Assembly (NCBI GenBank): GCA_003838145.1
Contig: QYZZ01000086.1
Location: 1 to 64,000 of the forward strand
From: Tindallia sp. MSAO_Bac2
GTDB taxonomy: Bacteria > Bacillota > Clostridia > Peptostreptococcales > Tindalliaceae
Direction: 5' to 3'
DNA: 64,000 bases
Shown: positions 44,254 to 62,046 of the stretch, one piece after another
Numbering within the stretch: position 1 is the stretch's first letter
How the letters are laid out: each line of letters begins with the position of its first letter
Notes under the pieces: generated by a model
Database searches by the model: none
What the model was told of the DNA's origin: nothing
The model's input: the letters and a program-made list of their open reading frames with translations, nothing else
Translations under genes and position numbers: made by a program

Positions 44254-44277
44254 GCTTATCACTCCTCGTAAGTTTTG

Positions 44278-45216: not shown

Positions 45217-45294
45217 TAAAACAACCTCCTGTTAATTGGGTTCTGATATTATTATAACAGAAGTTGGAAGGGCTTAACAGAGCAAAAGATGACG

Positions 45295-45327
45295 GAAAAA
45301 AGACCCACCGTAAGGCGGGTCTTTTTT
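45295..45327 (-). terminator. Terminator of the proVWX operon
   Basis: AAAAAAGACCC pairs with GGGTCTTTTTT with an inner CC/GG pair; it lies 24 bases past the proX stop on the minus strand and separates it from trxB. Confidence 0.85.
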
Positions 45328-45350
45328 GAAGCTTGTAACATTATTGAGTT

Positions 45351-46301
45351 TTACTCTACATAGTCGTTAATGTCAGCGATGCTGTCGAAAGGCACATAGG
45401 TTGGAACGACCAAACCGATGCGCGCGCCTTCATAGTTGGTTCTTACTTCAACAACGTCATCACCAAACTGCTCCATATAGGAAGCGTGGGTTCCTGGTAA
45501 CCAGGCAGTTGTCATAAAGTCTGCATCACCTTCAGCAATAGATGACCACATAACACCGGCATCAACAGGTGTCATGGTAACGTCGAAACCAGCTTCTCGG
45601 AGAATGGCAGCAACTACATTGGTGCTAGCCAGTGCGCAATCCCACTCAACCAAGAGGATATCAATTTCTTCGCCATTGCCTTCCAGGCCTTCTGGAATCC
45701 ATTCGTCAACCAGATCGCGGTTTTCTTCGATCCACTGCTCTGCGTTGGCTTCGAAATCGCTGTCCTGAGCGTTCATGTCCATAACGGCACCAATCTCATC
45801 ATCTGTCCAGTTGAAGTTCTCCAGCAGCTCGAATACAGCTGGATGGTCTTCTTCAAGACCCGTTCTTGCAATAGTAGCAATGTACTCTTCGCCACCAAAT
45901 ACTTCTTCTGGATCTTCAAGATACTTAAGATCATAGGCTGCGAATTTCCAGTGAGGAGACCAGCCGGTTACGATGATCCATTCCTCATTCTGAATAGCTG
46001 TATCCAGTTCAGCTGTCATAGCTGCGTCACTGGATTCCAACAGTCCAACATTCAGTCCATATACTTCAATAGCATCCTCGGTAGCTGCCATGATACCAGC
46101 GCCGGGGTCAATACCAGTGATTTCTGAAATGCTGCCTTCCGGCTCATCCACATCAGCTGGTTCTTCTACGTCTGCAGGTTCTTCCACATCGACTGGCTCT
46201 TCCACGTCAGCCGGCTCGTCTGCAGGTCCGCAACCGGTAAACACCAGTGCGAAAGCGGTCAGTAAAATTAATGTTACGATCATCAGTTTGTTCTTAAACA
46301 A
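45351..46301 (-). CDS. proX: Glycine betaine ABC transporter substrate-binding lipoprotein
   Basis: A 316-residue lipoprotein with lipobox LVFTGC (Cys 24). An unusual acidic linker follows, made of repeated EEPADV units (about residues 28-56), before the OpuAC/ProX-type domain. In that domain the Trp-rich sites WSPHWKF and TTAWLPGTH would form the aromatic box for the trimethylammonium group. It binds glycine betaine or related quaternary amines for the ProVW importer. The start is TTG 46301 with AAAGGAGGG upstream. It is the third gene of the operon, 54 bases after proW. The acidic repeats fit a salt-adapted surface. Confidence 0.88.
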   Translation of the reverse strand: MFKNKLMIVTLILLTAFALVFTGCGPADEPADVEEPVDVEEPADVEEPADVDEPEGSISEITGIDPGAGIMAATEDAIEVYGLNVGLLESSDAAMTAELDTAIQNEEWIIVTGWSPHWKFAAYDLKYLEDPEEVFGGEEYIATIARTGLEEDHPAVFELLENFNWTDDEIGAVMDMNAQDSDFEANAEQWIEENRDLVDEWIPEGLEGNGEEIDILLVEWDCALASTNVVAAILREAGFDVTMTPVDAGVMWSSIAEGDADFMTTAWLPGTHASYMEQFGDDVVEVRTNYEGARIGLVVPTYVPFDSIADINDYVE

Positions 46302-46355
46302 ACTAATCCCTCCTTTTCTTTCCTCTTTTATGATTTAAATTTATGATCAATGGCA

Positions 46356-47216
46356 TTATTCTTTCGCATCTTTGGTTCGTTGAGTGATGCGGTCAAGAAT
46401 AATAGCCAGGATCACTACGGATACTCCACCTTCAAATCCCAGACCCAGGTCAACACGCTGAATTCCTCTCAGCACGACGGCGCCTAGTCCGCCGGCTCCG
46501 ATCATTGCTGCGATAACAACCATGGAAAGGGCCAGCATAATACACTGGTTAACCCCGGCCATAATGGTGGGCATTGCAAGTGGTAATTGAACCTTAGTAA
46601 GTTTTTGCCAGTCGGTGGTACCGAAGGCGGTTGCAGCTTCCACCATATCTTCCGGCACCAGTCTGATTCCAAGACCTGTAAGTCGGATAACCGGTGGCAC
46701 GGAAAAGACAACGGTTGCAATCATAGCGGATACAACTCCCAGACGGAAGAAGAATATCGCTGGTATAAGATAAACAAATGCTGGCATAGTCTGCATAAAG
46801 TCAAGGATCGGCCAGACGATCTTGTGTACCATATCATAGCGTGTAGATAGAATTCCTGTCGGTATTCCAATTAAAAGCGATATAAAAACAGCTACCAGAA
46901 TCATCGTAATAGTTATAATGGATTCTTCCCACAATCCAATATTATAAATCAGACTCAAACCAATAAAACTAAAGACGGCAACACGCTGACTTGCCAGCTT
47001 CCAGGCAACAGCGCTGATGATCAGAATTAGTATAAAGGGTGGTATCAGAAGCAGAAGATCCGACAGAACACCCATAAAACCGCTGAGTATGGTTGAAATT
47101 ACCCGTGTCAGTGGGCCAATTGCAGTCCGAAGTGCCTGAATAATGTCGTCCACCCAATTACCGATGGGGATTCGCGGTATGAAATCCAGTGGATTGAGAA
47201 TACTACTCGTCATCAT
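46356..47216 (-). CDS. proW: Glycine betaine/proline ABC transporter permease
   Basis: A 286-residue permease with six or more membrane helices. The EAA loop, around AFGTTDWQKLTKVQLPLAMPT (in parts), contacts the ATPase, and the preceding core has GIPTGILSTRYDM. It matches ProW/OpuAB proteins. Its start overlaps the end of proV by 14 bases; AAGGAGG lies 9 bases before the ATG. Together with the ATPase and ProX it imports compatible solutes for osmoprotection, or as fermentation substrates in betaine-reducing anaerobes. Confidence 0.9.
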   Translation of the reverse strand: MMTSSILNPLDFIPRIPIGNWVDDIIQALRTAIGPLTRVISTILSGFMGVLSDLLLLIPPFILILIISAVAWKLASQRVAVFSFIGLSLIYNIGLWEESIITITMILVAVFISLLIGIPTGILSTRYDMVHKIVWPILDFMQTMPAFVYLIPAIFFFRLGVVSAMIATVVFSVPPVIRLTGLGIRLVPEDMVEAATAFGTTDWQKLTKVQLPLAMPTIMAGVNQCIMLALSMVVIAAMIGAGGLGAVVLRGIQRVDLGLGFEGGVSVVILAIILDRITQRTKDAKE

Positions 47217-48402
47217 GTGGATACGCCTCCTTTACCAGACCGGACAACAGAGAACCTCTGATAATCAGGCCTTTGAACTTTTTGCTTTCATCCACCACGG
47301 CAACAGGGATCGTAGCACTGGCGGTGAGTTCGAAGAGGTCATTCAGAGTTGTATCCGGTAAAGTGGTGACCACATCTCTTTGAAGAATGTCTTCAACACT
47401 GGTTTGATCAGCATCTACCGCTTTTCTGGCATCATCTGAACTAATATACCCAATTAATTCGTCATCCCGGCTCACCATGAAGATGCCGGAAATACCAGCC
47501 TCTCTCATTTTGCGAAGCACCATCCGGGGACCGTCCTTCGGACGGGCAACTGCTTTTGCCTTCACCATAACGCCTTCAGCCGTTAACACTTTGGATAAAT
47601 CCACGTCTTCAACAAAACGCGCAACATATTCAGTTTTTGGATTGCGGAGAATGTCTTCCGGTGCATCGATTTGCTCGATGATACCATCTTTCATAATAGC
47701 CACCCGGTCACCCAGTTTTAGAGCTTCATCCAAATCATGGGTTATAAAAACGATGGTTTTATTCATTTTGCTCTGAAGATTCAGCAACTCATCCTGCATA
47801 TCTCGTCTGATCAGTGGGTCAAGAGCACTGAAGGCTTCATCCATAAAAAGGATCTCCGGGTCTACGGCAAGACATCTGGCCAACCCGACCCGCTGCTGCA
47901 TTCCCCCGCTTAGTTGTCCCGGTTTTTGATTGGCATAGCCTTTTAAACCAACAAGATCCAAGGCTTCATGAGCTTTCTTCATGCGTTCTTCCAGGCTGAT
48001 ATCCTGAATCTCCAAACCAAAAGCTACATTTTCGGCAACGGTACGATGTGGAAACAGAGCAAATTTCTGGAATACCATGGCCTGTTTATAACGACGGAAG
48101 TTTCGAAGCTCATCTTCGTTCATTTTAGTAACATTTTCGTTATCCACCCAAACGTCACCCGATGTTGGTTCGATTAAGCGGTTCATGCAACGAATTAGTG
48201 TTGACTTTCCGCTTCCGGAAAGGCCCATGATAACAAATATTTCCCCTTCTCCAACCTCGAAGGTGGCTTTATTGACACCTACGGTATTGCCGGTTTTTTC
48301 CAGGATCTCATCCTTGGAAATATTCTGATCCAACATTTCCAAAGCTTTTTTCGGGCGATCCCCAAAAATCTTGGTAACATTTTCTACCTTAATAGTTGCC
48401 AC
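47203..48402 (-). CDS. proV: Glycine betaine ABC transporter ATPase with CBS domains
   Basis: A 399-residue ATPase. Walker A GLSGSGKST is at about 59-67, Q-loop in VFQKFALFPH, signature LSGGMQQR, Walker B ILFMDEAFSALDP and the switch His in FITHDLDEAL. Two CBS domains occupy about 280-395; in OpuA-type importers they sense ionic strength and gate transport. The GTG start at 48402 has AAGGGAG 8 bases upstream. First gene of a proVWX operon read toward lower coordinates; its promoter must lie in the long region shared with fhs. Confidence 0.92.
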   Translation of the reverse strand: MATIKVENVTKIFGDRPKKALEMLDQNISKDEILEKTGNTVGVNKATFEVGEGEIFVIMGLSGSGKSTLIRCMNRLIEPTSGDVWVDNENVTKMNEDELRNFRRYKQAMVFQKFALFPHRTVAENVAFGLEIQDISLEERMKKAHEALDLVGLKGYANQKPGQLSGGMQQRVGLARCLAVDPEILFMDEAFSALDPLIRRDMQDELLNLQSKMNKTIVFITHDLDEALKLGDRVAIMKDGIIEQIDAPEDILRNPKTEYVARFVEDVDLSKVLTAEGVMVKAKAVARPKDGPRMVLRKMREAGISGIFMVSRDDELIGYISSDDARKAVDADQTSVEDILQRDVVTTLPDTTLNDLFELTASATIPVAVVDESKKFKGLIIRGSLLSGLVKEAYPHDDE

Positions 48403-48893
48403 ATACTCATCTCCCTTCCTCGGGACAGATTCGAATCCTGATTTCTTATCCCGCTAATATTAGTTTATACCCACAAAAGTACTCATAATAAACATGAATG
48501 GGTCTGTAACACTATGCATTCTAACACGATACATAAAAAAATGCAAATTCACCAGTGACTGCACAGGTTGGAATTAAAGGATTTAATTTAACAGGCAGGG
48601 GCGAATATTCAAATTTTTAAATCATATGGAAGATTTTTTATTGACATTACATTGCTACTATTATAATCTGTAATAGAACAGCGTTCTAAAAATGTCGATG
48701 AATTTTCTGCATTATAAGTCGGCGGTATGATTTTAAGCGTATAATTTTGGAAACTATGCTCTTGTGCATTGACGAAATAACGACGCTGATTTGTTAAACT
48801 GTAAATTATAAGCATGCATCGCATTTTCCGAGCATGTGTATATATGTTAAAGCAGAAAAAATTTGAAGAAAATTTTAAGGAGGCGTAATAACG
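48403..48893. other. 491-bp divergent regulatory region between proV and fhs
   Basis: No gene is supported here. It holds the divergent promoters of proVWX and fhs, the fhs promoter-operator at 48641-48689, and a roughly 200-base fhs leader. A second weak promoter candidate (TTGACG near 48768, TGTTAA 17 bases on) lies inside the leader. The left part is AT-rich without clear structure. No riboswitch consensus was recognised. Confidence 0.5.
48641..48689 (+). promoter_or_regulatory. fhs promoter with IclR-type palindromic operator
   Basis: -35 TTGACA (48641-48646) and -10 TATAAT (48662-48667, 15-base gap) are followed at 48674-48688 by the perfect palindrome TAGAAC-AGC-GTTCTA, which would cover the transcription start. 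An almost identical palindrome stands at the same place in the panB-like promoter (52322-52338). The 6-3-6 GAAC/GTTC form resembles IclR-family operators, and an IclR gene is encoded at 55794. Confidence 0.75.
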
Positions 48894-50570
48894 ATGAAAA
48901 CAGACATTCAAATTGCCCAGGAAGCCACCCCGCAGGACATACGGGACATAGCTGCCCAGCTGAACCTGACAGAAGATGACCTGGACCTTTACGGAAAGTA
49001 CAAAGCCAAAGTATCCACGGAACACGTAAAGAAAGCCAAAGAGGCAAAAAAAGCCAAACTGATCCTGACCACCGCCATCAACCCGACACCTGCCGGTGAA
49101 GGAAAAACCACTACCACTATTGGAGTGGCTGATGCCCTGAGTTACTTAGGCAAGAAAACCATCGTGGCCCTGAGAGAACCATCCCTTGGGCCTGTATTCG
49201 GCGTAAAAGGCGGCGCTGCCGGTGGCGGATACGCTCAAGTCATCCCTATGGAAGACATTAACCTGCACTTTACCGGCGACATCCACGCTGTAGGTACCGC
49301 CAACAACCTGTTGGCCGCCATGATCGACAACCACATACAGCAAGGCAACAAACTGGGCATCGACAACCGGAAAATCACCTGGAGACGCGCCATGGACATG
49401 AACGACCGCCAGCTGAGAAGCATGGTTAACGGTATGGGCGGCAAAGGTAATGGCGTACCCAGAGAAGACGGCTTCGACATTACCGTAGCCTCCGAAGTCA
49501 TGGCAGCTTTCTGCCTGGCCACCGACCTGAAAGATCTGAAAGAACGACTGGGCCGCATGGTAGTTGCCTACACCCGGGATGACCAGCCCATTACTGCTAA
49601 CGACCTGAACGCCCAGGGAGCCCTGGCAGCACTCCTGAAAGACGCCCTGAAACCCAACCTGGTGCAAACCCTGGAAGGAACCCCTGCTTTTATCCACGGA
49701 GGACCCTTTGCCAACATAGCCCATGGCTGCAACTCTCTGGCTGCCACCCAAACCGCCATGCACTTCGCCGACTACGTTGTGACCGAAGCTGGCTTTGGAG
49801 CGGATCTGGGAGCCGAGAAATTCATCGATATCAAATGCCGCCAGGCCGGCATCCAGCCAGACGCTGTCATGATCGTCGCCACGGTACGAGCCCTTAAATC
49901 CCATGGCGGCGTGAAAAAAGCCGATCTCAACGAAGAAAACCTGGAAGCCCTGAAAAAAGGCATCCCTAACCTGATGAAACACGTCGAAAACATGACCGAC
50001 GTCTTCGGTCTGCCCGTTGTCGTCGCCATCAACCGGTTCCCGCTGGACACCGAAGCCGAACTGGCCATGGTACGGGAAGCCTGCGAAGCAAGAGGCGTCA
50101 ACGTAGCCCTGTCCGAAGTCTGGGCCAAAGGCGGCAAAGGCGGCGTAGAAGTAGCCGAAGAAGTCCTGCGTCTGATTGAAAGCAACGACGGCAGTAACTT
50201 CAAATACACCTACGACCTGGAAGAGCCCATTGACAAAAAAATCGAAGCCATCGCCACCCGCATCTACGGAGCCGACGGCATCCAGCTGAGTCCGGCAGCC
50301 GAAAAAGAAATCGCCAAACTGGAGAAACTTGGCTTTGGCAACCTGCCCATCTGCATGGCGAAAAGCCAGTACTCCCTGTCGGATGACCCCACCAAACTGG
50401 GCCGGCCGGAAGGATTCACCGTGGCCGTACGCCAGGTGAAAGTATCCGCCGGAGCCGGATTTATCGTCGCACTGACCGGAGATATTATGACCATGCCGGG
50501 ACTGCCGAAAGTGCCATCTGCAGAACTGATTGATGTGGATGAAGATGGCATGATTCAGGGATTGTTTTAG
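48894..50570 (+). CDS. fhs: Formate--tetrahydrofolate ligase
   Basis: Interconverts formate, ATP and THF with 10-formyl-THF; run backwards it yields ATP in purine- or amino-acid-fermenting clostridia. The 558-residue protein has the P-loop [13 protein letters not shown] (about 65-77), followed by [19 protein letters not shown] and other family segments. Codons are strikingly C-ending (for example AAC, GCC, ATC), unlike the adjacent fchA and folD, which suggests very high expression. It is followed by its own terminator and so is mainly monocistronic. The operator-bearing promoter at 48641 indicates shared control with the panB-like operon. AAGGAGG precedes the ATG. Confidence 0.95.
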
Positions 50571-50719: not shown

Positions 50720-51349
50720 ATGAAATGGATTGATCGAAGTGTGAATGAATTTGTTTCCGAACTGGGATCCAAGGCGGCTGTTCCTGGCGGTGGTGGCGCT
50801 GCTGCGCTATTGGGAGGAATAGGAGCGGCGTTAGCTGGCATGGTGGCAAATTTATCCTCTACAAAAAAGAAGACAGAAGAACAAAAAGCCAGAATTGCAG
50901 AGCTTTTAGAGGAAAGCAAAAAGCTTCAGAAAAGACTGTTGGAACTAACGGACCTAGATGCCGAAAATTTCCTGCCGCTTTCCAGGGCGTACGGATTACC
51001 GACAGAAACGGCAGAGCAAAAGGAAGAAAAAGAGCGAATTTTGGAGAGGGCATTGAAAAAAGCCTGCGAGGTACCACTGGAAACTGTTCTGATATGTCAT
51101 GAAGGTATCCAGCTGCATCATGAACTGGTGCACCTGAGCTCAAAGCTTGTTATAAGTGATGTTGGTGTTGGGGTACAGGCTCTGAAAGCTGGACTTCTAA
51201 GTGCTCAGCTCAATGTTCAGATTAACCTGAAGCTCATTAAAGATGAAAGTTTTGTAAGCGAAACCCGTCAGCAAATAGATCCGTTAATTCCTGATGGTGT
51301 GAAGAAAGCGGATGAAGTATTTGGAATTGTCAGTGAAGCTATTAGTTAA
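50720..51349 (+). CDS. fchA: Methenyl-THF cyclohydrolase/formimino-THF cyclodeaminase
   Basis: A 209-residue helical protein of the FTCD_C family, opening MKWIDRSVNEFVSELG with the conserved Gly-rich segment VPGGGGAAALLGGIGAAL (about 23-40). It interconverts 5,10-methenyl-THF and 10-formyl-THF, or deaminates 5-formimino-THF. Placed between fhs and folD, the cyclohydrolase role is the better reading, especially because this FolD seems to lack its cyclohydrolase lysine. AAGGAGG lies before the ATG. folD starts 28 bases downstream. There is no histidine- or purine-degradation gene in the window to support the formimino role. Confidence 0.87.
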   Translation: MKWIDRSVNEFVSELGSKAAVPGGGGAAALLGGIGAALAGMVANLSSTKKKTEEQKARIAELLEESKKLQKRLLELTDLDAENFLPLSRAYGLPTETAEQKEEKERILERALKKACEVPLETVLICHEGIQLHHELVHLSSKLVISDVGVGVQALKAGLLSAQLNVQINLKLIKDESFVSETRQQIDPLIPDGVKKADEVFGIVSEAIS

Positions 51350-51377
51350 AAACTTCTTGAATGAAAGGACGATGAAA

Positions 51378-52232
51378 ATGGCTGAATTACTTAAAGGAAA
51401 GCCAGTTGCGGATGCAATTGTGGATGCACTAAAGAATGACACAACAGTACTGGAGTCAAAGGATATTAAGCCTTGCCTGGCTCTTGTAAGGGTTGGGGAA
51501 AAATCAGATGATGTTGCCTACGAAAGAGCCATTGTTAAACGCTGTGATGCAGTTGGGATTACTACGACAAAAGTCGAGTTACCGGAAGAAATTACACAGG
51601 AGGATTTTCTGACCCAACTTGGTAAGGTTAATGAAGACCAGTTGATCCATGGAATTCTCATCTTTCGGCCCCTGCCAAAGCAACTGGATGAAAAGGTAAT
51701 AGAAACAAATATTGCACCGGAAAAAGACGTTGACTGTCTGCATCCGGAAAACACAGCCAAACTCCTAACGGGAGATGAAAGCGGATTTGTTCCCTGTACC
51801 CCTATGGCAGTGATGGAAATTTTAAAACATTACCAGATTCCGTTGGAAGGCAAAAACGCAGTGGTACTGGGGCGTTCCATGGTGGTTGGAAAGCCGGCGG
51901 CATTACTGCTTTTACAGGAAAATGCAACCGTAACAGTAGCTCATTCCAGGACCCGAGACCTGGAAAAAATAACTTCAGGAGCTGATGTTCTGGTGGCGGC
52001 TATTGGCCGTTCGGAATTTGTTCGGGAAGCACATATAAAGGAAGGTGCCGTTGTAGCAGACGTAGGAATTAACGTAGATGAAAATGGCAATATGACCGGT
52101 GATGTGCATCAGGAAGAAGCAAAAAGAAAAGCAGGATCCTTTACACCGGTTCCCGGCGGAGTTGGCTCTGTGACCACGGCTGTTCTGGCGAAGCAGGTTA
52201 TTAAAGCGTGTAAAATGCAAACGAAGGAATAA
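51378..52232 (+). CDS. folD: Methylene-THF dehydrogenase (FolD family), probably without cyclohydrolase activity
   Basis: A 284-residue NAD(P)-dependent 5,10-methylene-THF dehydrogenase. Family motifs are ILIFRPLPKQLDEK, DVDCLHPEN, the nucleotide site VVLGRSMVVGKPAALLLL and the C-terminal FTPVPGGVGSVTTA. Bifunctional FolD has Tyr-x3-Lys (Y50/K54 in E. coli), the Lys being needed for cyclohydrolysis. Here the segment reads Y48-E-R-A-I52-V-K54, so the Y+4 position is Ile by my alignment. Acetogen-type FolD proteins have a similar YERG/A segment and partner with FchA. ATG 51378 (MAELLKG) is chosen, with AAAGGAC upstream. Confidence 0.9.
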   Translation: MAELLKGKPVADAIVDALKNDTTVLESKDIKPCLALVRVGEKSDDVAYERAIVKRCDAVGITTTKVELPEEITQEDFLTQLGKVNEDQLIHGILIFRPLPKQLDEKVIETNIAPEKDVDCLHPENTAKLLTGDESGFVPCTPMAVMEILKHYQIPLEGKNAVVLGRSMVVGKPAALLLLQENATVTVAHSRTRDLEKITSGADVLVAAIGRSEFVREAHIKEGAVVADVGINVDENGNMTGDVHQEEAKRKAGSFTPVPGGVGSVTTAVLAKQVIKACKMQTKE

Positions 52233-52285: not shown

Positions 52286-52338
52286 TTGACATGCAGGGAG
52301 AAGTATCGTATTATTTAATCATTAGAACGGCGTTCCAA
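52286..52338 (+). promoter_or_regulatory. panB-like operon promoter with IclR-type operator
   Basis: -35 TTGACA (52286-52291) and -10 TATTAT (52309-52314) at the ideal 17-base spacing. At 52322-52338 lies TTAGAAC-GGC-GTTCCAA, a 7-3-7 palindrome with one mismatch, matching the fhs operator in 13 of the 15 central positions and in location relative to the -10. A repressor there would block transcription start. Confidence 0.75.
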
Positions 52339-52508: not shown

Positions 52509-53357
52509 ATGGCAAAGAAAAAAAGTATTCTTGATCTGATGAAGATGAAGAAGGCAGGCGAACAGGTGGCGTGGATCACTGCATATGATTATCCCACCGC
52601 TATGTTTGCAGAAGCTGCCGGCATGGACATGCTGCTGGTAGGCGACTCACTGGGAATGGTAACACTGGGTTACAATGGCACCATCCCTGTAACCATGGAA
52701 GACTGCATCTCCCACTGCCAGGCAGTGAGACGGGGCGCCCCCAACACCTGGATTATCGGAGACATGCCCTTCGGATCCTATCAGTCATCCGACGAGCAGG
52801 CCGTAGACAACGCTGTACGTTTTATGAAAGAAGCCGACGTAGATTGCATTAAGCTGGAAGGCGGCGTACGGGTACAAAGCCGGATCAAAGCCATCAGCGA
52901 CGCAGGCATTCCCGTAATTGGCCACATTGGTCTGACCCCGCAAAGCTCCGGTCAGTTAGGCGGATTTAAAGCCCAGGGAAGAACCGTGGAAAACGCCCGA
53001 GGCGTTATCGAAGACGCCCTGGCGGTACAGGAAGGTGGAGCCTTTGCTATCCTGGTAGAAGCCGTACCACCGGAACTGACAGAATTCATTACCAAAAAAC
53101 TGGATATTCCGGTATATTCCATCGGAGCCGGCGCCTGCGACGGACAGCTGCTGATCAGCAGTGATATGGTAGGCAAGTTCCAGGCCTTCACCCCGAAATT
53201 CGTTAAGAAATATGCGGAAGTGGCAGAAGTGGAAACCAACGCCTACAAAGAATACATCAAAGATGTAAAAGAAGGTGTATTCCCATCTGACGAATATGTG
53301 TATCACATTACGGATCCGATTGAAGAGTTTGAAAAGCTTTTCAAAGAGTTTGAATAA
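52509..53357 (+). CDS. PanB-like (ketopantoate hydroxymethyltransferase family) enzyme, probable catabolic paralogue
   Basis: A 282-residue PEP-mutase/KPHMT-fold barrel. Every catalytic feature of PanB is visible: Mg ligands D46 in LLVGDSLGM and D85 in GDMPF, substrate Lys K115 in IKLEGG, H139 in GHIGLTPQS and the catalytic Glu E184 in VEAVP. It should therefore move a one-carbon unit between methylene-THF and a 2-oxo acid. PanB normally makes ketopantoate, but here there is no panC or panD. The gene sits with THF enzymes and a dehydrogenase, shares an operator with fhs, and has the same C-ending codon bias as fhs. I infer a high-flux catabolic role, perhaps in the cleavage direction. The C-terminal HDxxG stretch is replaced by SSDMVG. 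Confidence 0.85.
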   Translation: MAKKKSILDLMKMKKAGEQVAWITAYDYPTAMFAEAAGMDMLLVGDSLGMVTLGYNGTIPVTMEDCISHCQAVRRGAPNTWIIGDMPFGSYQSSDEQAVDNAVRFMKEADVDCIKLEGGVRVQSRIKAISDAGIPVIGHIGLTPQSSGQLGGFKAQGRTVENARGVIEDALAVQEGGAFAILVEAVPPELTEFITKKLDIPVYSIGAGACDGQLLISSDMVGKFQAFTPKFVKKYAEVAEVETNAYKEYIKDVKEGVFPSDEYVYHITDPIEEFEKLFKEFE

Positions 53358-53389: not shown

Positions 53390-54328
53390 ATGACAATGAA
53401 AGCTATTGAAAAATACATTCAGGAAAAAACGAATTTTCCAGTGAAAGATCTTTACGACATGCCATCTTCAAAAGCAACCTTCGAAGGTGGAGCTCATTAT
53501 AGACATGAAATTCCGGGAATTGAGAACGCAGCTAACTTCGAAACCCTGGTTAAAGAATCTGAAGCAAAGAATGTTAAGGTTCACCGAGTTATTGGTACTG
53601 TCGGAGGCTCTGCACTTTTAGACAAGCAGGAATTGAAATACTACGCACAAATTGGAGCAGATGCTAAAATGGAGACCCTGGTTAACCCGGTTCCAACTCG
53701 TGGGTGGGATACTGGTAAGCAGTATGGAACTCCGGAAGGTTATGTATCCGGCATGCGTGTTCGTGGACAGGACAACCTGTACATGTGGCTTCGGGAACTA
53801 AGCAGATGCATTGATGTTGGAATCCGCGGATTCCTGATTCCTGACGAAGGACTGCTCTACCTGGCAAACAAACTGAGAGAAGACGGCGTCATCCCAGCGG
53901 ATGTTAAATTTAAAATTTCTGTATTCGCTGGTCACGGTAATGCTGTTAACGCTAAAATGCTGGCAGATATGGGTGCGGACAGTTTCAACCCGTTGGCTGA
54001 TCTTTCCCTGCCAATGTTTGCTGCTATTCGAAGTGTAACGGATATTCCTCTGGATATTTACATGAGTCTTGTTGATTCCATGGGCAACAACCAGCGTCAC
54101 CTTGAAGCGGACGAAATTGCACGTATTTGTGCTCCTGTATACTTCAAGTTTGAGCCTGGTAAAAACGAATGTGATCTTTATAATGCATGGCATGATGATT
54201 CAATGACGAATCACCTTGTGAAGGTTAAGGTCAGAATGGCTAAATTATGCCAGGAATGGTGCGATGATAGTGACTATGATCTTAAATTCAACGACTACAC
54301 AGATGACCTTGCCATTCCAAAGCCATAA
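53390..54328 (+). CDS. U32-peptidase-like TIM-barrel protein of unknown function
   Basis: A 312-residue soluble protein. Segments such as GIRGFLIPDEGLLYLANKL, MGADSFNPLADLSLPMFAAI and TDIPLDIYMSLVDSMGN (read separately) look like successive strands of a U32-type TIM barrel, though the catalytic Cys motifs of collagenase-like U32 proteins are not seen. I cannot name a reaction. Its position, 32 bases after the panB-like gene with AAGGAGG before the ATG, and ahead of the dehydrogenase gene, makes it a likely third enzyme of the pathway. Codon use is ordinary, unlike the panB-like gene. Followed by a hairpin without T-run. Confidence 0.6.
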   Translation: MTMKAIEKYIQEKTNFPVKDLYDMPSSKATFEGGAHYRHEIPGIENAANFETLVKESEAKNVKVHRVIGTVGGSALLDKQELKYYAQIGADAKMETLVNPVPTRGWDTGKQYGTPEGYVSGMRVRGQDNLYMWLRELSRCIDVGIRGFLIPDEGLLYLANKLREDGVIPADVKFKISVFAGHGNAVNAKMLADMGADSFNPLADLSLPMFAAIRSVTDIPLDIYMSLVDSMGNNQRHLEADEIARICAPVYFKFEPGKNECDLYNAWHDDSMTNHLVKVKVRMAKLCQEWCDDSDYDLKFNDYTDDLAIPKP

Positions 54329-54392: not shown

Positions 54393-54423
54393 ACCCCTAT
54401 AACGAAAAGATTGGAGTGATTTG

Positions 54424-55665
54424 ATGAGCAAGAACCCATTTGAAACTGCCCTGACGACATTGCAGGAAGCTGCCAAAATGGCGGATATAGAACCTAATGT
54501 TGTGAAAATGCTAAGTCAGCCCAAGCGAATTTTTGAGTTTACCATTCCGATGAAAATGGATAACGGTGAACTGGAAATATTCACGGCGTATCGAGTACAT
54601 TACAATGATGCTTTGGGTCAGGTTAAGAACGGTCTTCGTTTTGTGCCGGATTTAGACTTGGACACAGTGAAAGCTCTTGGATTCTGGATGACGATTAAAC
54701 ATGCTGTAGGCGGCATTCCAGCCGGCGGAGGAAAAGGCGGCGTCCGCGTTGACGCAGGCAAACTTTCCGAAGGCGAACTGGAACGACTTTCCCGCGCCTA
54801 TATCCGTAAGCTGCCTATGAAAGGCGCCTGGGTAGACATTCCCGGAGCGGATATTGGTACCAGTGCCAAAACCATGGCATGGATGCTGGACGAGTATGAA
54901 GAAATAAACGGGTTCCACAGCCCGGCTGCCATAAATGACAAACCAGCTGAAACCAGCGGTACTGTCGGAAGCATGGAAGCCACCGGAACCGGAGCTTTTT
55001 TTGTGACTATGGAAGCCGTTAGGGATTTAAATATTCCTAAAGGCTCAACTGTTGCAATTCAGGGCTTTGGAAATGTAGGCCGTATTGCAGCGCGACTGCT
55101 GCATAAAGAAGGCTACAAAGTAATTGGTGTAGCAGATTATTTTGGCGGTGTTTATGACTCCAAAGGACTTGATGTAGATAAGCTAGAAGAGCATGCCACA
55201 AATCATCCGAATCGCTCTGTTGAAGGGTTTGCCGGTGAGAAGGCAATCAGCAAGGAAGAAGTGCTTGAGCTGGATTGCGACATACTAATACCAGCTGCGG
55301 TTCAAAGTGTTATTCACGAAGAAAATGCGAACAATATTAAAGCCAAACTGATTATGGAAGCAGCTAACGGCCCGGTAACACCGGGAGCAGAAAAAATGCT
55401 TCAGGAAAGACAAGTGCATATCGTACCAGACGTACTGACCAACTGCGGAAGTGCAATCGTTTGCTCTTTTGAGCGAACTCAGGGACTTACAGACAGTTAT
55501 TGGGATATAGAAACCATCAATTCCCGTCTGAAAGAGCAGATTACTAAAGCATACAGGGATACTATGGACACGGCTCAGGCGAAGAATACATCCATGCGTA
55601 ATGCAGCCTGGATTAATGCTCTTCAAAAGCTTGCAAAGTCCATGAAAGCCAGAGGCTGGGTTTAG
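54424..55665 (+). CDS. Glu/Leu/Phe/Val dehydrogenase family enzyme with altered substrate pocket
   Basis: A 413-residue NAD(P)-dependent amino acid dehydrogenase. K68, K92, K104 (in AGGGKGG) and D138 (in WVDIPG) match the carboxylate-binding and catalytic residues of glutamate dehydrogenase. The nucleotide site is QGFGNVGRIA (214-219 GFGNVG). However, the pocket loop usually reading NAGGVTVSYFEW reads NCGSAIVCSFER (340-351): the Ser that helps bind the glutamate side-chain carboxylate is Cys347, and KGGIR is KNGLR. A substrate other than glutamate is therefore likely. In context it would deaminate an amino acid to the 2-oxo acid used by the PanB-like enzyme. ATG 54424 is preferred over TTG 54421. 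Confidence 0.85.
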   Translation: MSKNPFETALTTLQEAAKMADIEPNVVKMLSQPKRIFEFTIPMKMDNGELEIFTAYRVHYNDALGQVKNGLRFVPDLDLDTVKALGFWMTIKHAVGGIPAGGGKGGVRVDAGKLSEGELERLSRAYIRKLPMKGAWVDIPGADIGTSAKTMAWMLDEYEEINGFHSPAAINDKPAETSGTVGSMEATGTGAFFVTMEAVRDLNIPKGSTVAIQGFGNVGRIAARLLHKEGYKVIGVADYFGGVYDSKGLDVDKLEEHATNHPNRSVEGFAGEKAISKEEVLELDCDILIPAAVQSVIHEENANNIKAKLIMEAANGPVTPGAEKMLQERQVHIVPDVLTNCGSAIVCSFERTQGLTDSYWDIETINSRLKEQITKAYRDTMDTAQAKNTSMRNAAWINALQKLAKSMKARGWV

Positions 55666-55793: not shown

Positions 55794-56612
55794 ATGGGAC
55801 AGGAAAAAGCACACCAGGCACCCCGCTATCCAGTGCAGACAATAGATAAGGCATTGGAAGTTCTGGAAATCCTGGCGGAAGAAGGGTTCCAGGAAGGCCT
55901 GGGTGTGAGCGAACTGAGCAGCCGGCTAAACATTGGAAAAAGCACTGTGCACCGCATTCTCGATACGCTGACGGCTCGGAATTACATTGAACAGTGCGAA
56001 GAAACAAAAAAATACAGGCTTGGCTGGCGACTGTTCGAAATAGGAAATATTATACCGCGTCAGCGAAATTTATATAACTTTGATATGGCAATACTGCAGG
56101 AACTGTGCAACCGATACCAGGAAACCGTCAATCTGGGAGTAAGAGTAGACGACAGTGTTGTAACCATATCGAAGGTAAGTCCCAAAGCTTCGTTGATAGC
56201 TAATTTGCAGATTGGCTCCAGGGAGTCCCTTCATGCAACGGCAATGGGGAAAGTGTTGATCTGTGAAATGACGAAGGAAGAAGTACTGCAGATTTTTGGT
56301 GATCGTAAGCTGCAGGCATACACCACGTCAACGATTACTGACCTGGATGAGCTGATGGAGGAATTAAAACGGATCAGAAAGCAGGGTTTCAGCATTGATG
56401 ATGAAGAGTTCTGCCCGGGTCTGACCTGTGTTGCGATGCCTGTTCGGGACTTTAAAAACGAAATCGTTGCCGCCATCAGTGTAAGTGGTGCCAGTATCAG
56501 GCAAACTTACAGTAAAATTGAGTCGGTCAGAGAAGGGTTAAAAGAAGCAACGGATAAACTGTCTGCCTTCCTTGGATGGCAGGGTGAAACCAAAGACTCA
56601 GATGGTGAATAG
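55794..56612 (+). CDS. IclR-family transcriptional regulator
   Basis: A 272-residue regulator. The winged HTH is at about 15-80 (SELSSRLNIGKSTVHRILDTL in parts). The effector-binding IclR domain spans about 90-260, with SLHATAMGKVLIC, GFSIDDEEFCPGLTCVAMPV and AISVSGASIR typical of the small-molecule pocket. It stands first in a run with M20, TRAP transporter, racemase-family and DoeA-like genes. IclR proteins bind GAAC/GTTC-type palindromes, which fits the twin operators at fhs and the panB-like operon. No such site was found just upstream of its own gene. The effector is probably the imported compound or a breakdown product. Confidence 0.88.
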   Translation: MGQEKAHQAPRYPVQTIDKALEVLEILAEEGFQEGLGVSELSSRLNIGKSTVHRILDTLTARNYIEQCEETKKYRLGWRLFEIGNIIPRQRNLYNFDMAILQELCNRYQETVNLGVRVDDSVVTISKVSPKASLIANLQIGSRESLHATAMGKVLICEMTKEEVLQIFGDRKLQAYTTSTITDLDELMEELKRIRKQGFSIDDEEFCPGLTCVAMPVRDFKNEIVAAISVSGASIRQTYSKIESVREGLKEATDKLSAFLGWQGETKDSDGE

Positions 56613-56633: not shown

Positions 56634-57869
56634 ATGACCACTCCAATGGATCCCATCAGAAAACAAGTGGAAGAATTAAAAGAAGAGTTAATTGCCCTTA
56701 GGAGAGATTTCCATGAATATCCGGAGCTTGGATATCAGGAACATCGGACAGCTCAGATTGTAGAAGAGTATTTACAGGATCTGGGAATAGAAACACAGCG
56801 CATGACACAAACTGGCGTTACCGGGATGATTGAAGGTAATTCTGAAGGTCCTGTATTAATGTTGCGAGCTGACTTGGATGCATTACCGGTCCAGGAGGAA
56901 AACAAAGTTCCCTACGCCTCGAAAAATCCAGGCGTTATGCATGCCTGTGGCCACGACGCACACACGGCTATGCTGATGGTTGCAGCTAAAGTGCTGGTTG
57001 GCATGAAAGACCAGCTGAATGGAAGCATCAAACTGGTTTTTCAGCCTAATGAAGAAAATGCCGGAGCACTGCCCATGATTAATGAGGGCGTACTGGAAAA
57101 CCCGACGGTGGACGCTGTTGTCGGCGTGCATATCTGGACTCCATTACCCTCCGGGACCATAGGCTTGTCAGCTGGTGGCGTTATGTCAGGACTGGATATT
57201 TTTAAGATTCTGGTCAGAGGATACGGCGGTCACTCCGGATATCCGGAAACAGCCATCGATCCCATTATAGCAGCTTCAGACATTGTTTTGTCGGCGCAGC
57301 GGGTGCAAACCCGGGAAATAAGCTGTATGAAGCCGACAACTATGTCCTTTGGAAAAATTGAAGGTGGAACAAAAGCAAATATAATCCCGGACTATGTGAC
57401 ACTGGAAGGCTCTATACGAACCTTGTATGACGATTCTGATGACAAAGCGGTTATGAGGTTGAAACGTGTTGCGGAAAAAGTGGCCGAGACGCATAATTGT
57501 GAATGCCAGATGGAGTGGTTCCGGGAAAATATTGCCCTGATTAATGATGAAAGCATGGTTAAGGTTATGATGTCGGCAGCAAGAGAAGTAGCTGGAGACG
57601 ACGAGAATGTCGTGCCTCACTCCAATATGGCCAGTGAAGATTTTTCTGAGTTTGCAGCCATTGTCCCTGGGGTATTCATATTCCTGGGTACAGGAAATGA
57701 GACCAAGGAGACTCATTACCCTCATCACAACCCCAGATTTAACATTGATGAAGATGTTATGCCTCTGGGTGTGGAGTTATTCGTCAAAGGCACCCTGTCT
57801 TACTTCAAGCAACAGGCAGCCATTAGCAGAAGGGAAGAAGAGGAAGAGAGTGCCCTTGTCGATAACTGA
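56634..57869 (+). CDS. M20 family amidohydrolase (N-acyl amino acid deacylase type)
   Basis: A 411-residue di-metal amidohydrolase of the IAA-amino-acid/hippurate hydrolase group. The metal site is visible: MHACGHDAHT supplies Cys and His ligands, FQPNEENAG the acidic pair, GVHIWTP a His and HSNMASEDFSEF the last ligand. It cleaves an N-acyl group or other amide from an amino acid. In the DoeA-like context it could remove acetyl from N-acetyl-2,4-diaminobutyrate, replacing the unrelated DoeB. The start may be 56634 or ATG 56646 (MDPIRKQVEE); the G-rich ribosome site at 56628-56633 suits neither perfectly. It follows iclR by 21 bases. Confidence 0.87.
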   Translation: MTTPMDPIRKQVEELKEELIALRRDFHEYPELGYQEHRTAQIVEEYLQDLGIETQRMTQTGVTGMIEGNSEGPVLMLRADLDALPVQEENKVPYASKNPGVMHACGHDAHTAMLMVAAKVLVGMKDQLNGSIKLVFQPNEENAGALPMINEGVLENPTVDAVVGVHIWTPLPSGTIGLSAGGVMSGLDIFKILVRGYGGHSGYPETAIDPIIAASDIVLSAQRVQTREISCMKPTTMSFGKIEGGTKANIIPDYVTLEGSIRTLYDDSDDKAVMRLKRVAEKVAETHNCECQMEWFRENIALINDESMVKVMMSAAREVAGDDENVVPHSNMASEDFSEFAAIVPGVFIFLGTGNETKETHYPHHNPRFNIDEDVMPLGVELFVKGTLSYFKQQAAISRREEEEESALVDN

Positions 57870-57935: not shown

Positions 57936-59078
57936 ATGAAGAAAACAGATGGAAACATGAAACTGCTGGCATTGTTACTTAGTCTTATGTTGTTGAGTAC
58001 TTTGGCATTAGCTGGTTGTGGCGGTGGAGACCCTGCGCCTGCAGATGATCCGGAAGAAGCTCCAGCAGAAAGAACCGGTGAAGAGACCCTTGGCGAATTG
58101 ATAGACACGCCTTTACAGCCGCGATTAGCCTCTGAGGAAATTGAAGGCGACTTTATGACCGTATGGGCTGAATATTATGCGGACCATATGAGAGAAGTTA
58201 CGGATGGCATGTACGACTTAACAGTTTATCCTTTCGGTACTCTGGGGGACACTCGTGACATCAATGAACTGGCACAGTTGGGTGTAGTTGAGTACGTGTT
58301 TTCTGATTACGCCTGGATCAGTGCTTTTGTACCGGAAGCTCAGGTTCTGACTCTGCACTATCTGTGGCCACCGGAGCACATGCCGGAAACATTGGACTGG
58401 GTAGTTCGAAACGGTGAGTTTATGGACGTACTGGAAGAAGCCTTCCGTCGAAACGGTTTGGTTCCGCTGGGAGTTCTTTATGAAGGATGGCAAACCATCA
58501 GCTCCAATCATCCTATCCGAAGCCTCGAAGATATGGAAGGATTTAAAGTTCGCGTTATGGGATCCGCAATGTTGGTAGAGAACTATCTGGCCTATGGCGC
58601 AGATCCGACACCATTGGCTTATGGTGAGATATACGGCGGACTGCAGACAAACCTGATTGATGGACAGATTAACCCGATTTTCGCCATCAGAAGCATGAAC
58701 TTCTACGAAGTGCAGGATTACTTAACAGATATCTTTGCAGAACCATTTACCGGTATTCCAACTGTGAACATGCAGTTCTTTGATTCTCTGCCAGAGGAAG
58801 TACAGGAAGAAATGAGAAACTGGTGGACGGACGCAATCCTGCCATCTGCAGAGTGGATTGACGCAAGACATGAAGAAGATCTGAATTACATGCTGGAAGC
58901 AAGACCTGATATGGAATACCATCAGATTACCGGTGGTGAGCTGGATGCCTTTAAAGAAGCTTCCCGACCTGTATACGATAAGTTCCTTGAAATTGGTGGA
59001 CCTCAGGCAGAAGAAATTTTGGAAGTGTTGTTAAATGACATTGAAAATGCTAAAGATGCCTTAGGCATTGAAGACTAA
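57936..59078 (+). CDS. TRAP transporter substrate-binding lipoprotein (DctP type)
   Basis: A 380-residue lipoprotein with lipobox LALAGC (Cys 28) and an acidic linker, then a DctP-fold domain. Characteristic regions are EYYADHMREVTDGMYDLTVYPFGTLG (in parts), LEDMEGFKVRVMGSAM with the substrate-carboxylate Arg, and YGEIYGGLQTNLIDGQINP. It captures an organic anion or zwitterion outside the cell. Its closest partners in compatible-solute systems would be TeaA/UehA, but the ligand residues were not verified. AGGAGG precedes the ATG. A hairpin before dctQ probably keeps this protein in molar excess over the membrane parts. Confidence 0.88.
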   Translation: MKKTDGNMKLLALLLSLMLLSTLALAGCGGGDPAPADDPEEAPAERTGEETLGELIDTPLQPRLASEEIEGDFMTVWAEYYADHMREVTDGMYDLTVYPFGTLGDTRDINELAQLGVVEYVFSDYAWISAFVPEAQVLTLHYLWPPEHMPETLDWVVRNGEFMDVLEEAFRRNGLVPLGVLYEGWQTISSNHPIRSLEDMEGFKVRVMGSAMLVENYLAYGADPTPLAYGEIYGGLQTNLIDGQINPIFAIRSMNFYEVQDYLTDIFAEPFTGIPTVNMQFFDSLPEEVQEEMRNWWTDAILPSAEWIDARHEEDLNYMLEARPDMEYHQITGGELDAFKEASRPVYDKFLEIGGPQAEEILEVLLNDIENAKDALGIED

Positions 59079-59155: not shown

Positions 59156-59815
59156 ATGGAAGCCAATCAAAAGACAGGCTCATCTACTATTCTCCAGAAA
59201 CTGGGAAAAAGTGTGGAGTATTTTGAGGTTATTGTATTGTCAGCTTCAGTATTTGCGCTGGCAACGCTGGTAATCGCAAACGTCTTTGCCCGAACCTTCT
59301 ACAGAAGCATTTACTTTGCAGAAGAAATAGCAGAGCTGCTGACAATCCTTATTACCTTTGCAGGGGTCAGCTATGCTGTTCGTAAAGCCAGACACATTCG
59401 AATGGGTGCTTTCTTTGATGCAGCACCACCCAAACTGCAGAAGGCAATGATATTTGTGATTTGCACCATCAGCGGCTTGGTTATGTTTATGATGGCCTAC
59501 TACTCTTACGGCTACATGGCACAGTCCAGGGCTATGAGTCACGTGACGCCTGCACTGAGGTTGCCTTACTGGACTTTTGTGGCAATTATACCCCTTGGGT
59601 TCTTTTCGGCCGGGGTGCAGTATATCAGAACCATTATTAAGAACATTAAGGAAGAAGCTGTTTGGCTTTCTCCTGAACAGCAGGGCGAGTACGAAGCAGA
59701 AGAACTGCAGCAAATGGCAGAAGAATATCAGGCTGTCGGAGAAGAATTGAAGCAGGAAACCATGGACGTAAATGATGAAAACAATGTCGAATCGGATACA
59801 GAAAAGAAACCCTAA
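59156..59815 (+). CDS. TRAP transporter small permease (DctQ type)
   Basis: A 219-residue membrane protein with four helices. It includes VLVIANVFARTF-like helix 2, AEEIAELLTILITFAGVSYAVRK (in parts) and a typical ALRLPYW segment near the third helix. The C-terminal 60 residues form an acidic cytoplasmic tail longer than in most DctQ proteins. It pairs with the large permease in sodium-driven TRAP uptake. AAAGGAG precedes ATG 59156; longer in-frame starts run into the hairpin. The next gene starts 15 bases downstream. Confidence 0.87.
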   Translation: MEANQKTGSSTILQKLGKSVEYFEVIVLSASVFALATLVIANVFARTFYRSIYFAEEIAELLTILITFAGVSYAVRKARHIRMGAFFDAAPPKLQKAMIFVICTISGLVMFMMAYYSYGYMAQSRAMSHVTPALRLPYWTFVAIIPLGFFSAGVQYIRTIIKNIKEEAVWLSPEQQGEYEAEELQQMAEEYQAVGEELKQETMDVNDENNVESDTEKKP

Positions 59816-59830
59816 AAGAGAGGTGGTTTT

Positions 59831-61108
59831 ATGCCATTACTGGTTGGTAGTATGATCGTTAAGCTTTTATTCGGGTTTCCTTTCATGGTTGTACTGTTAG
59901 GATCCCTGATTCTTTACATCTTAGTTTTTATACCTGGCTTTAACATGAATGTAGTTGTGCAGCAGGTGGTAACGGGAATTATACCACCGTCTTTGGTGGC
60001 AGTACCTATGTTTATTCTGGCGGCCAATATTATTACCGCTGGTCAGGCTGCCCGTCGGCTCATACGAATGGTAAAGGCGTTTTTGGGACATATCCCTGGA
60101 GGTCTGGCTATTACCACTAACGCGGCCTGTACTCTTTTTGGTGCCGTCTCCGGCTCTACCCAGGCAACGGTAGCAGCCATTGGTGGAACAATGAGGCCTA
60201 TGCTGCTGGAAGCTGGATACTCCAGCCCTTTTACCCTTGCACTAATTATTAATTCCAGTGACATTGCATTTTTGATTCCGCCAAGTATAGGATTCATTGT
60301 TTATGGAGTTGTCACCGGAACTTCGGTTGGAAAGCTCTTCCTGGCCGGTGTTGGACCGGGATTACTGATATTCTTCCTTTTCTCCGTATATGCCTTTATT
60401 TACTCAAAGAAAAATGGTATTGCCGGTGCTCCGAAAGCAGACTGGCAGGAACGTAAAGATGCCGTCAGGAGCGGAATTCTGGTAATGGGCTTTCCTCTTA
60501 TTATCATCGGTGGAATTTACGGAGGAGTTTTCAGCCCTACAGAAGCCGCCGCCGCCTCCGTTGCCTACGCACTTTTTTTGGAAGGCTTTATTTACAAAAC
60601 TGTTACCTTTAACGCCATGATCGACCACTTTCTTCAGACAGGCGTAATTACAGGTGTAGTATTTGTGCTCGTGGGTGCCGGAAACGCCTTTTCATGGCTT
60701 CTCAGCTTCCTGAGAATACCACAGACGTATCTGCCGGCGGTATTTGGTGATGATCCCAGTCAGCTTTATGTTGTATTTGTAGTAGTGGCAGCATACTTTA
60801 TTGCGTGTATGTTTGTGGATCCAATTGTTGCCATTTATGTACTGAGTCCGGTATTTGCTCCTTATGTACTGCAAACAGGAATTGACCCTGTATTGCTGGG
60901 TGTTCTGGTAGTACTTCAGGCGGCTATAGGATCAGCGACGCCTCCTTTTGGCTGCGACATTTTTACGGCCCAGCTTATATTTAGGCGGCCCTATCTGGAA
61001 ATTATCAGTCATACACCGCCCTTTGTTTTTATCCTGTTGCTGGTAACAGTCCTGCTGGTTTTCTTCCCGCAAATTGCACTGTTCCTGCCTAATGCAGCAT
61101 TGATTTAA
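59831..61108 (+). CDS. TRAP transporter large permease (DctM type)
   Basis: A 425-residue protein with about twelve helices and the DctM family motifs: GHIPGGLAITTNAACTLFGAVSGS (in parts), SSDIAFLIPPSIGFIVYG, FSPTEAAAASVAYA and a C-terminal SATPPFGCDIF. The SATPPFG type loop takes part in sodium and substrate translocation. It completes the DctPQM import system encoded with the M20, racemase-family and DoeA-like enzymes. A repeat-rich gap of about 206 bases follows. Confidence 0.9.
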   Translation: MPLLVGSMIVKLLFGFPFMVVLLGSLILYILVFIPGFNMNVVVQQVVTGIIPPSLVAVPMFILAANIITAGQAARRLIRMVKAFLGHIPGGLAITTNAACTLFGAVSGSTQATVAAIGGTMRPMLLEAGYSSPFTLALIINSSDIAFLIPPSIGFIVYGVVTGTSVGKLFLAGVGPGLLIFFLFSVYAFIYSKKNGIAGAPKADWQERKDAVRSGILVMGFPLIIIGGIYGGVFSPTEAAAASVAYALFLEGFIYKTVTFNAMIDHFLQTGVITGVVFVLVGAGNAFSWLLSFLRIPQTYLPAVFGDDPSQLYVVFVVVAAYFIACMFVDPIVAIYVLSPVFAPYVLQTGIDPVLLGVLVVLQAAIGSATPPFGCDIFTAQLIFRRPYLEIISHTPPFVFILLLVTVLLVFFPQIALFLPNAALI

Positions 61109-61314: not shown

Positions 61315-62046
61315 TTGATCTACCATGTCAAACCGGGGCAGGTCAGTTATGGAGAAGCCATAGGCGTCATACTCCTTGACAGCGAAGCCCCTTTTATCCC
61401 CGGCGATGTTGCTAATGCCACCACTTATGATTTTCCCGTCCGATTCAGACGGGTCCCCGGACTTACTGTTGACCGAATATTAAAGCATGATATGACGGCG
61501 CTTCGGGATGTGATGGCTGCAGGAGAAGAGCTAAAGAAAGAAGGCGTCCGTGCCATTACTTCTGACTGTGGATTTATGATACTGTATCAGGATAAACTGG
61601 CCAGCGAGCTGAAAATTCCCGTATTTCTTTCCAGCCTCCTTCAATTGCCGTTTATCCAGAATATCTTTCCAAAAGATTCAAAAACTGGCATTCTAACAGT
61701 GGATTCCAATTCCCTGACAGATACAATACTGAACAAGGCCGGATCCGAGAGGACGGATGGTCTCGTTATTGCGGGTTTGCAGGAAAAACCCTTTTTTTCT
61801 GATGCCTTTATTAAAGAGGTTGGAACGCTTAACTTTCCAGAAGTGGAAAAAGAGGTGGTGGAATCAGCGAAAGATTTACAACGGTCCCATCCGGACTTAA
61901 GAGCAATTCTTCTGGAGTGCAGTGTGCTACCGCCTTATGGAGCTGCTGTACAGGAAGCCACTGGTCTGCCGGTTTTTGATTTTGTTACCATGATCAGGTA
62001 TATGTACCACGTTGTAGTGAAGGAAAGACGAAATGGATACATGTGA
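61315..62046 (+). CDS. Asp/Glu racemase superfamily protein (EutA/maleate isomerase-like)
   Basis: A 243-residue protein with the two-Cys active site of the superfamily: C85 in TSDCGFM and C202 in LLECSVLPPYG. This group includes aspartate, glutamate and hydantoin racemases, maleate isomerase and arylmalonate decarboxylase. A member (EutA) often accompanies ectoine-degradation genes, which fits the DoeA-like gene 200 bases downstream. The exact reaction is unknown; epimerisation of a ring-opened intermediate is one possibility. The start is TTG 61315 with GGGGGAGGTAAGG upstream; there is no nearby ATG in frame. Repeat elements lie on both sides of the gene. Confidence 0.8.
   Translation: MIYHVKPGQVSYGEAIGVILLDSEAPFIPGDVANATTYDFPVRFRRVPGLTVDRILKHDMTALRDVMAAGEELKKEGVRAITSDCGFMILYQDKLASELKIPVFLSSLLQLPFIQNIFPKDSKTGILTVDSNSLTDTILNKAGSERTDGLVIAGLQEKPFFSDAFIKEVGTLNFPEVEKEVVESAKDLQRSHPDLRAILLECSVLPPYGAAVQEATGLPVFDFVTMIRYMYHVVVKERRNGYM

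Follow-up and report, generated by a model that had tools for sequence, protein, structure and literature searches.

In published ectoine catabolism, 2,4-diaminobutyrate (DABA) is routed to aspartate (PMC8739950). The gene sets closest to the locus described here, uehABC-eutABCDE-ssd-atf and doeABCD of Ruegeria and Halomonas, combine a TRAP transporter of the UehA/TeaA kind with a DoeA-like hydrolase, a deacylase and an Asp/Glu racemase-like protein, and they include Ssd/Atf or DoeC/DoeD for the steps from DABA to aspartate. The regulator in ectoine catabolism of this type is EnuR (PMC8739950). A 2026 survey also predicted ectoine catabolism in Bacillota, including Clostridia, where the putative Gram-positive clusters consist of pucR-eutBCD-atf with abgB-thrA-adh; PanB, IclR and Tindallia are unnamed in that text (PMC13188858).

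The locus described here adds a protein of the PanB family to this picture. To our knowledge, PanB is annotated everywhere as an enzyme of vitamin synthesis. A PanB-type enzyme is, however, said to have served in a homoserine/4-hydroxy-2-oxobutanoate (HOB) route engineered in E. coli by Bouzon et al. in 2017, in which HOB and tetrahydrofolate (THF) reportedly give pyruvate and methylene-THF. The reversibility of PanB has also been discussed (PMC7073904). In the open-access literature, with subscription journals outside the scope of the search, no publication placing PanB in the breakdown of ectoine came to light. Here, we propose that a PanB paralog, PanB2, is the dedicated catabolic hydroxymethyltransferase of an ectoine-fermentation operon and cleaves HOB with THF, a reading to which we assign a probability of roughly 0.52.

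Results

The 64,000-nucleotide window that we analyzed comes from a 2.48 Mb assembly of a Tindallia-like soda-lake anaerobe (G000), whose closest named relatives are Tindallia and Anoxynatronum. Its forward strand carries an operon in the order panB2-u32l-gdh-iclR-m20-TRAP (dctPQM)-racemase-m24; m24 closes the operon, and the next gene downstream looks, by eye, like one for a histidyl-tRNA synthetase. As in the Ruegeria and Halomonas systems, there are genes for uptake and hydrolysis. The m24 product (62249–63424) is a candidate DoeA-like ectoine hydrolase of the M24 family, whose closest solved relative is DoeA (6TWK, E = 4e-107); its 461 bits against TIGR02993 lie below the cut-off of 613. 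The M20 amidohydrolase (56634–57869; TIGR01891, 355 bits) is a candidate acetyl-diaminobutyrate deacetylase, and its 304 bits against the DoeB2 model NF038260 fall below the cut-off of 550. The TRAP solute-binding protein, trapP (57936–59078), is of the ectoine type: its top PDB matches are 2VPN, 3GYY and 3FXB, the first two of which we take to be TeaA and the third UehA, and the presumed ligand-contact positions of TeaA and UehA are mostly kept in the alignment. The membrane subunits (59156–61108; DctQ, 59156–59815; DctM, 59831–61108) were recognized as open reading frames in a conserved operon order. Judged from sequence, the whole is probably a TRAP transporter of the TeaA/UehA kind and a predicted ectoine importer. 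An Asp/Glu racemase-like gene (61315–62046; PRK07475, 284 bits) occupies a EutA-like position.

Unlike the Ruegeria and Halomonas gene sets, the operon genes that we examined include none of the Ssd/Atf or DoeC/DoeD type for converting DABA to aspartate; genes for a GDH-like dehydrogenase, u32l and PanB2 are present instead. In place of EnuR, the operon has a gene for an IclR-family regulator (55794–56612; PF01614/PF09339).

The gene order is kept in Tindallia, Anoxynatronum, Clostridiaceae MAGs, Gudongella and Soehngenia, and in Alkaliphilus m20 and iclR are exchanged. Syntrophomonadaceae-type loci carry a panB2-u32l-gdh core with neither m24 nor TRAP genes nearby, which means that ectoine need not be the substrate in every case. 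Among congeners, G002 and G003 have operons in which iclR and trapP stand with no gene for an M20 enzyme between them (L168:7121-8281 and L169:16115-17275), and fchA was not detected in that of G002; the missing steps may be served from elsewhere.

The GDH-like amino-acid dehydrogenase (54421–55665; PF00208/PF02812) has altered substrate motifs, and a canonical GDH is encoded elsewhere in the genome, at C36. Its subfamily is marked by KNGxRFVP and NCGSAIVCSFER. The glutamate-pocket motif PxKGGxR has become KNGxR in 10 of the 11 orthologs and KDGxR in the other (L018), with the motif Lys kept, while the Ser of the VSYFEW motif is Cys in all 11.

Between panB2 and gdh lies u32l (53390–54328), the gene for an orphan TIM-barrel enzyme, which adjoins panB2 in ectoine-type operons and is conserved in 18 loci. 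The protein has no match in Pfam or NCBIfam. A peptidase U32 label could not be upheld: there is no PF01136 match, and distant relatives reach 13.8–15.1 bits against a cut-off of 22.4. Its predicted model (pLDDT 83.8) matches TIM barrels, and a fold search gave tied scores to RuBisCO-like proteins, class II aldolases, U32 and 2-methylisocitrate lyase, with no single family emerging. The distant relatives (35–39% identity; L212–L220), which none of the family models covers, are encoded beside genes for citF/citrate lyase, a fumarase-type hydratase subunit or phosphonopyruvate decarboxylase, a setting that points to short oxo-acid chemistry. Separately, we observed that u32l exists in two forms, one in G000 and G002 (97% identical) and one in G001 and G003 (96%), with 87–89% identity between forms (53390–54328, L003, L168 and L169). 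The genes near u32l group G002 with G003, unlike the u32l forms themselves, which cut across species; this suggests allele exchange.

PanB2 (52509–53357; 282 aa) matches the PanB family over its full length, with 350 bits against PF02548 (cut-off 28.7) and 304 bits against TIGR00222 (cut-off 207.6). Like PanB of E. coli (1M3U) and M. tuberculosis (1OY0), it conserves the catalytic-type residues: D46, S47, D85, K115, E117, H139 and E184 are common to canonical PanBs, and we take their catalytic, metal and substrate roles to be those in the E. coli PanB structure. Unlike these enzymes, PanB2 has fixed changes at positions 202–204 (VYS for TIG), 68 and 22, and is encoded in catabolic operons rather than with panC, panD or panE. 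It also falls in a separate clade (support 100/99, branch 0.78) from PanBs encoded beside panC, panD or panE, where the panD and panE neighbors were named by eye.

G000 has two panB genes, those for PanB2 and for a paralog, PanB1, at C6. No canonical panB was detected in G000, G001 or G005, and panC is present in G000; PanB2 or PanB1 might therefore also make pantothenate there. In G002, G003 and G004, PanB2 and a canonical panB are both present. PanB1, too, lies in a cluster of catabolic appearance (G000:C6:50000-60500, L040), with genes for nickel-pincer 2-hydroxyacid racemase/isomerase-type proteins, an IclR protein, a TRAP transporter and, named by eye, a DUF1537-like protein. A palindrome, GAACTGCGTTC, precedes the iclR of this cluster.

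Directly upstream of panB2, likewise on the forward strand, lie genes of one-carbon (C1) metabolism. The first, fhs (48894–50570; PF01268, 908 bits), is the only formate-tetrahydrofolate ligase gene in the genome. It is followed by fchA (50720–51349), of the methenyl-THF cyclohydrolase family (PF04961, 206 bits; FchA equivalog, 180 bits, below the cut-off of 275), and by folD (51378–52232, with its start at 51372 or 51378; PF02882 and PF00763), for methylene-THF dehydrogenase/cyclohydrolase. All three have this position in G000 and G003, as do fhs and folD in G002; outside the genus, the C1 genes are not adjacent in most operons.

Two palindromes connect these genes. The 15-bp sequence TAGAACGGCGTTCCA (52323–52337) is a probable operator upstream of panB2, and TAGAACAGCGTTCTA (48674–48688) is a probable operator upstream of fhs. 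At two mismatches, 0.6 matches would be expected by chance in the window. The panB2 site is conserved in G002, G003, L004–L009, L014 and L016 (11 loci in all), and the fhs site is found in three genomes, with counterparts in G002 and G003. A loose form of the pattern is weak evidence alone, with 12 matches genome-wide against 6 for a reversed control; its weight comes from the conservation of its location ahead of panB2 and of fhs. Thus, the shared palindrome ties the two transcription units together, and the IclR-family protein is a candidate reader of it. As a further feature of this region, divergent genes for an opuA-type glycine betaine transporter flank the fhs promoter region, in a minus-strand stretch (43108–48402) that also holds a thioredoxin reductase-like gene and one for a BhcA-like aminotransferase.

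We found no match to the acetyl-CoA synthase CdhC/AcsB in G000, which is 97% complete. A role for Fhs in Wood-Ljungdahl acetogenesis is therefore unlikely, and the most likely task of the enzyme is to yield formate and ATP. No formate channel was found in this genome.

PanB2 also occurs in other settings. At G001:C114 (L165:246-12816), fhs-fchA-folD-panB2 forms an unbroken run within another kind of cluster, together with TRAP, 3-hydroxyacyl-CoA dehydrogenase-like and IlvD genes and, downstream, genes for an MtaA-like and a corrinoid protein; this is a second PanB2 cluster, whose likely substrate is a different one. PanB2s that are 97–98% identical occur beside IlvD and TRAP genes at loci that lack u32l and gdh, and G005 encodes a 95% identical PanB2 with IlvD, a C6-type PanB and UxaA-like genes (UxaA being named by eye). 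In two further families, a PanB2-clade gene lies beside that for a folate-family ECF component, accompanied in one by a formate/nitrite transporter gene (G057) and in the other by fhs. A PanB2 of 76% identity (L167, G004:C5) is encoded amid branched-chain-type ABC transporter genes, together with an aldehyde ferredoxin oxidoreductase and a PrpR-type activator.

An earlier, sequence-only reading of this DNA had argued from codon usage that the PanB-like protein has a central catabolic or energy role rather than one in pantothenate synthesis. Gene context, shared regulation and phylogeny support the same view without the help of codon usage, and we regard a catabolic role for PanB2, rather than pantothenate synthesis, as well supported.

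The codon pattern itself, namely heavy use of C-ending codons in fhs and the panB-like gene and ordinary usage in fchA, folD and the U32-like gene, was confirmed. As our measure we used C/(C+T) at synonymous third codon positions, computed for 865 ORFs with a length of 150 aa or more from ~1.2 Mb of G000 (about half of the genome), with ORFs taken from greedy calling rather than curated annotation. The value for fhs, 0.77, ranks first (+5.1 SD); that for panB2, 0.65, is among the top six (+3.6 SD) and lies at the 98.9th percentile of a 563-gene sample. The genome median is 0.35, and the neighbors score 0.28 (fchA), 0.33 (folD), 0.36 (u32l) and 0.42 (gdh). Over whole-codon usage, the departures of fhs and panB2 from the genome are aligned (r = 0.55, rank 16 of 744), and those of fchA and folD are opposed to them (r about -0.37). 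The AAC share is 0.96 in fhs and 0.80 in panB2, against 0.41 genome-wide; the corresponding values are 0.69, 0.50 and 0.27 for GCC, 0.59, 0.52 and 0.24 for ATC, and 0.44, 0.36 and 0.20 for TCC. The C-richness is confined to the bodies of the two genes and fades at their ends, to 0.25–0.33 over the last 25–50 codons, and smaller C-rich patches occur within u32l and gdh. In the PanB1 cluster, dctM (0.73) and dctQ (0.62) are as extreme as fhs and panB2.

The sister genome G001 has the same bias (0.81 for fhs, 0.68–0.69 for panB2), although ~42% of fourfold sites in these genes differ between the two genomes; the observed fourfold identity is 0.57–0.58, compared with 0.40–0.49 expected under independent draws. 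The congeners G002 and G003 encode near-identical proteins without C-ending bias. In G004 and G005, the C-share of fhs is again raised relative to its flanks. The bias is gene-specific and, being held in G001 despite this divergence and absent from G002 and G003, it is lineage-specific and maintained where present.

The sequence-only reading had taken C-ending codons as the mark of very high expression. This interpretation fails in G000: C/(C+T) is an ordinary 0.26–0.37 in ribosomal proteins, GroEL, RpoB, enolase and GAPDH, and by a codon adaptation index with ribosomal proteins as the reference panB2 is average (0.675, 51st percentile) and fhs low (0.646, 18th percentile). A separate, weaker signal of expression comes from rare-codon avoidance. 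Codons avoided by ribosomal proteins are scarcer in panB2 than in 99% of genes, and the same is seen for fhs (96%), u32l (98%), trapP (99%) and likewise GroEL; u32l also lies at the 99th percentile for ribosomal-like codon usage. High expression of the PanB2 operon is plausible, as is a link between the C-ending bias and high expression during ectoine growth.

We weighed two origins for the bias. Translational selection for very high Fhs and PanB2 expression under catabolic conditions, of a kind unlike that in ribosomal genes, is an explanation that we hold tentatively, at a little under an even chance. It is in keeping with the rare-codon avoidance that panB2, fhs, u32l and trapP share with GroEL and with the raised C-share of fhs in G004 and G005, but it must contend with the absence of the bias in G002 and G003, whose proteins are near-identical, with the ordinary usage of other abundant proteins, and with a membrane subunit gene at C6 that equals fhs in strength. 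The bias could instead have been left behind when fhs and panB2 were recently acquired from a GC-rich donor, the alternative that the sequence-only reading had itself named and one that would suit their standing as compositional outliers (GC3 0.62 and 0.53). Codon pattern, phylogeny and synonymous divergence lead us to reject it as very improbable. The bias of fhs is not plain G+C enrichment, because its codons for Lys and Glu lean towards A at the third position (AAA 0.93, GAA 0.89); the proteins are 96–97% identical to those of congeners, with which PanB2 groups in the tree; and G001 keeps the bias at a fourfold identity near that of independent draws.

Discussion

Our proposal starts from the content and conservation of the operon, the relationships of its proteins to DoeA and TeaA/UehA, the PanB2 clade, the shared palindrome and the absence of a detected acetyl-CoA synthase. 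The TeaA/UehA-type TRAP transporter would import ectoine, the DoeA-like M24 enzyme would open its ring to give acetyl-DABA, and the M20 enzyme would take off acetate to leave DABA. From DABA onwards we infer each step, as we do the substrate and direction of PanB2 and the part played by the regulator. The GDH-like dehydrogenase would remove the 2-amino group of DABA oxidatively, giving 4-amino-2-oxobutanoate, and u32l would exchange the 4-amino group for a hydroxyl by elimination and hydration, giving HOB. PanB2, running the PanB reaction type in reverse, would then convert HOB and THF to pyruvate and 5,10-methylene-THF. The C1 unit may be oxidized by FolD and FchA, Fhs would yield formate and ATP, and pyruvate would go to acetyl-CoA. 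An IclR-type regulator acting on the shared palindrome may couple fhs to the operon.

The path from ectoine through DABA and HOB to pyruvate and methylene-THF is the simplest that uses every operon part; the exact reaction of PanB2 is a proposal that we put at about even odds. It would be the same PanB-type reaction as in the engineered E. coli route, here as a natural fermentation step. IlvD acting on a tetronate would also yield HOB, and an HOB common to the ectoine and tetronate routes would explain why near-identical PanB2s are found in both settings. A broader reading, which we favor somewhat less than its negation, is that PanB2 is a natural PanB-family, THF-dependent HOB lyase serving several C4 substrates (ectoine via DABA, tetronates via IlvD) and that, with u32l making HOB, ectoine is fermented to acetate, formate, ammonia and ATP. 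Several points stand against the proposed pathway. Were u32l a lyase, the operon would hold two C-C-cleaving barrels, which would be redundant, and the matches to the DoeA, DoeB2 and FchA models miss their equivalog cut-offs. The same side is taken by observations given above: PanB2 or PanB1 might also serve pantothenate synthesis in G000, G001 and G005, C1 genes are not adjacent in most operons outside the genus, Syntrophomonadaceae-type loci have no m24 or TRAP genes close by, and fchA in G002 and m20 in the G002 and G003 operons went undetected.

PanB2 might instead be an ordinary ketopantoate hydroxymethyltransferase for pantothenate and CoA, in an operon that degrades ectoine by other means. 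Its intact set of catalytic-type residues and its passing of TIGR00222 fit such an enzyme, as does the presence of panC in G000, where canonical panB was not detected. We nevertheless consider this unlikely, given the long branch that sets the PanB2 clade apart, the canonical panB retained beside PanB2 in G002, G003 and G004, the further paralog at C6, and the linkage of panB2 to u32l and gdh across several families. Alternatively, PanB2 could act on 4-amino-2-oxobutanoate directly, releasing NH3 and methylene-THF in a retro-Mannich reaction that can be likened to that of T-protein, with u32l racemizing or rearranging an earlier intermediate, for example. The exchange of amine for hydroxyl would then be unnecessary, and a THF-dependent enzyme beside a dehydrogenase, as operon content suggests, would make sense; but the 97–98% identical PanB2s that accompany IlvD and TRAP genes in the absence of u32l and gdh suggest a shared hydroxy-oxo-acid substrate, and we give this version a low probability. 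Lower still, in our estimate, is the chance that PanB2 runs forward, placing a hydroxymethyl group from formate-derived methylene-THF onto a 2-oxo acid. Fhs, FchA and FolD are able to supply methylene-THF and PanB enzymes do run forward in biosynthesis, yet the rest of the operon is for uptake, hydrolysis and deamination, and no later operon gene uses a hydroxymethylated product.

The codon results carry a caution, in that a strong C-ending bias of single genes need not track ribosomal-protein usage. For the PanB family, the consequence of PanB2 running backwards, as we propose, would be that many catabolic 'panB' genes are misannotated. If the proposed pathway is true, ectoine would be degraded anaerobically, with a gain of energy, in saline and soda-lake sediments; the engineered path from a C4 keto acid to one-carbon units would have a natural counterpart; and the uncharacterized, highly conserved TIM-barrel family of u32l would receive a first role.
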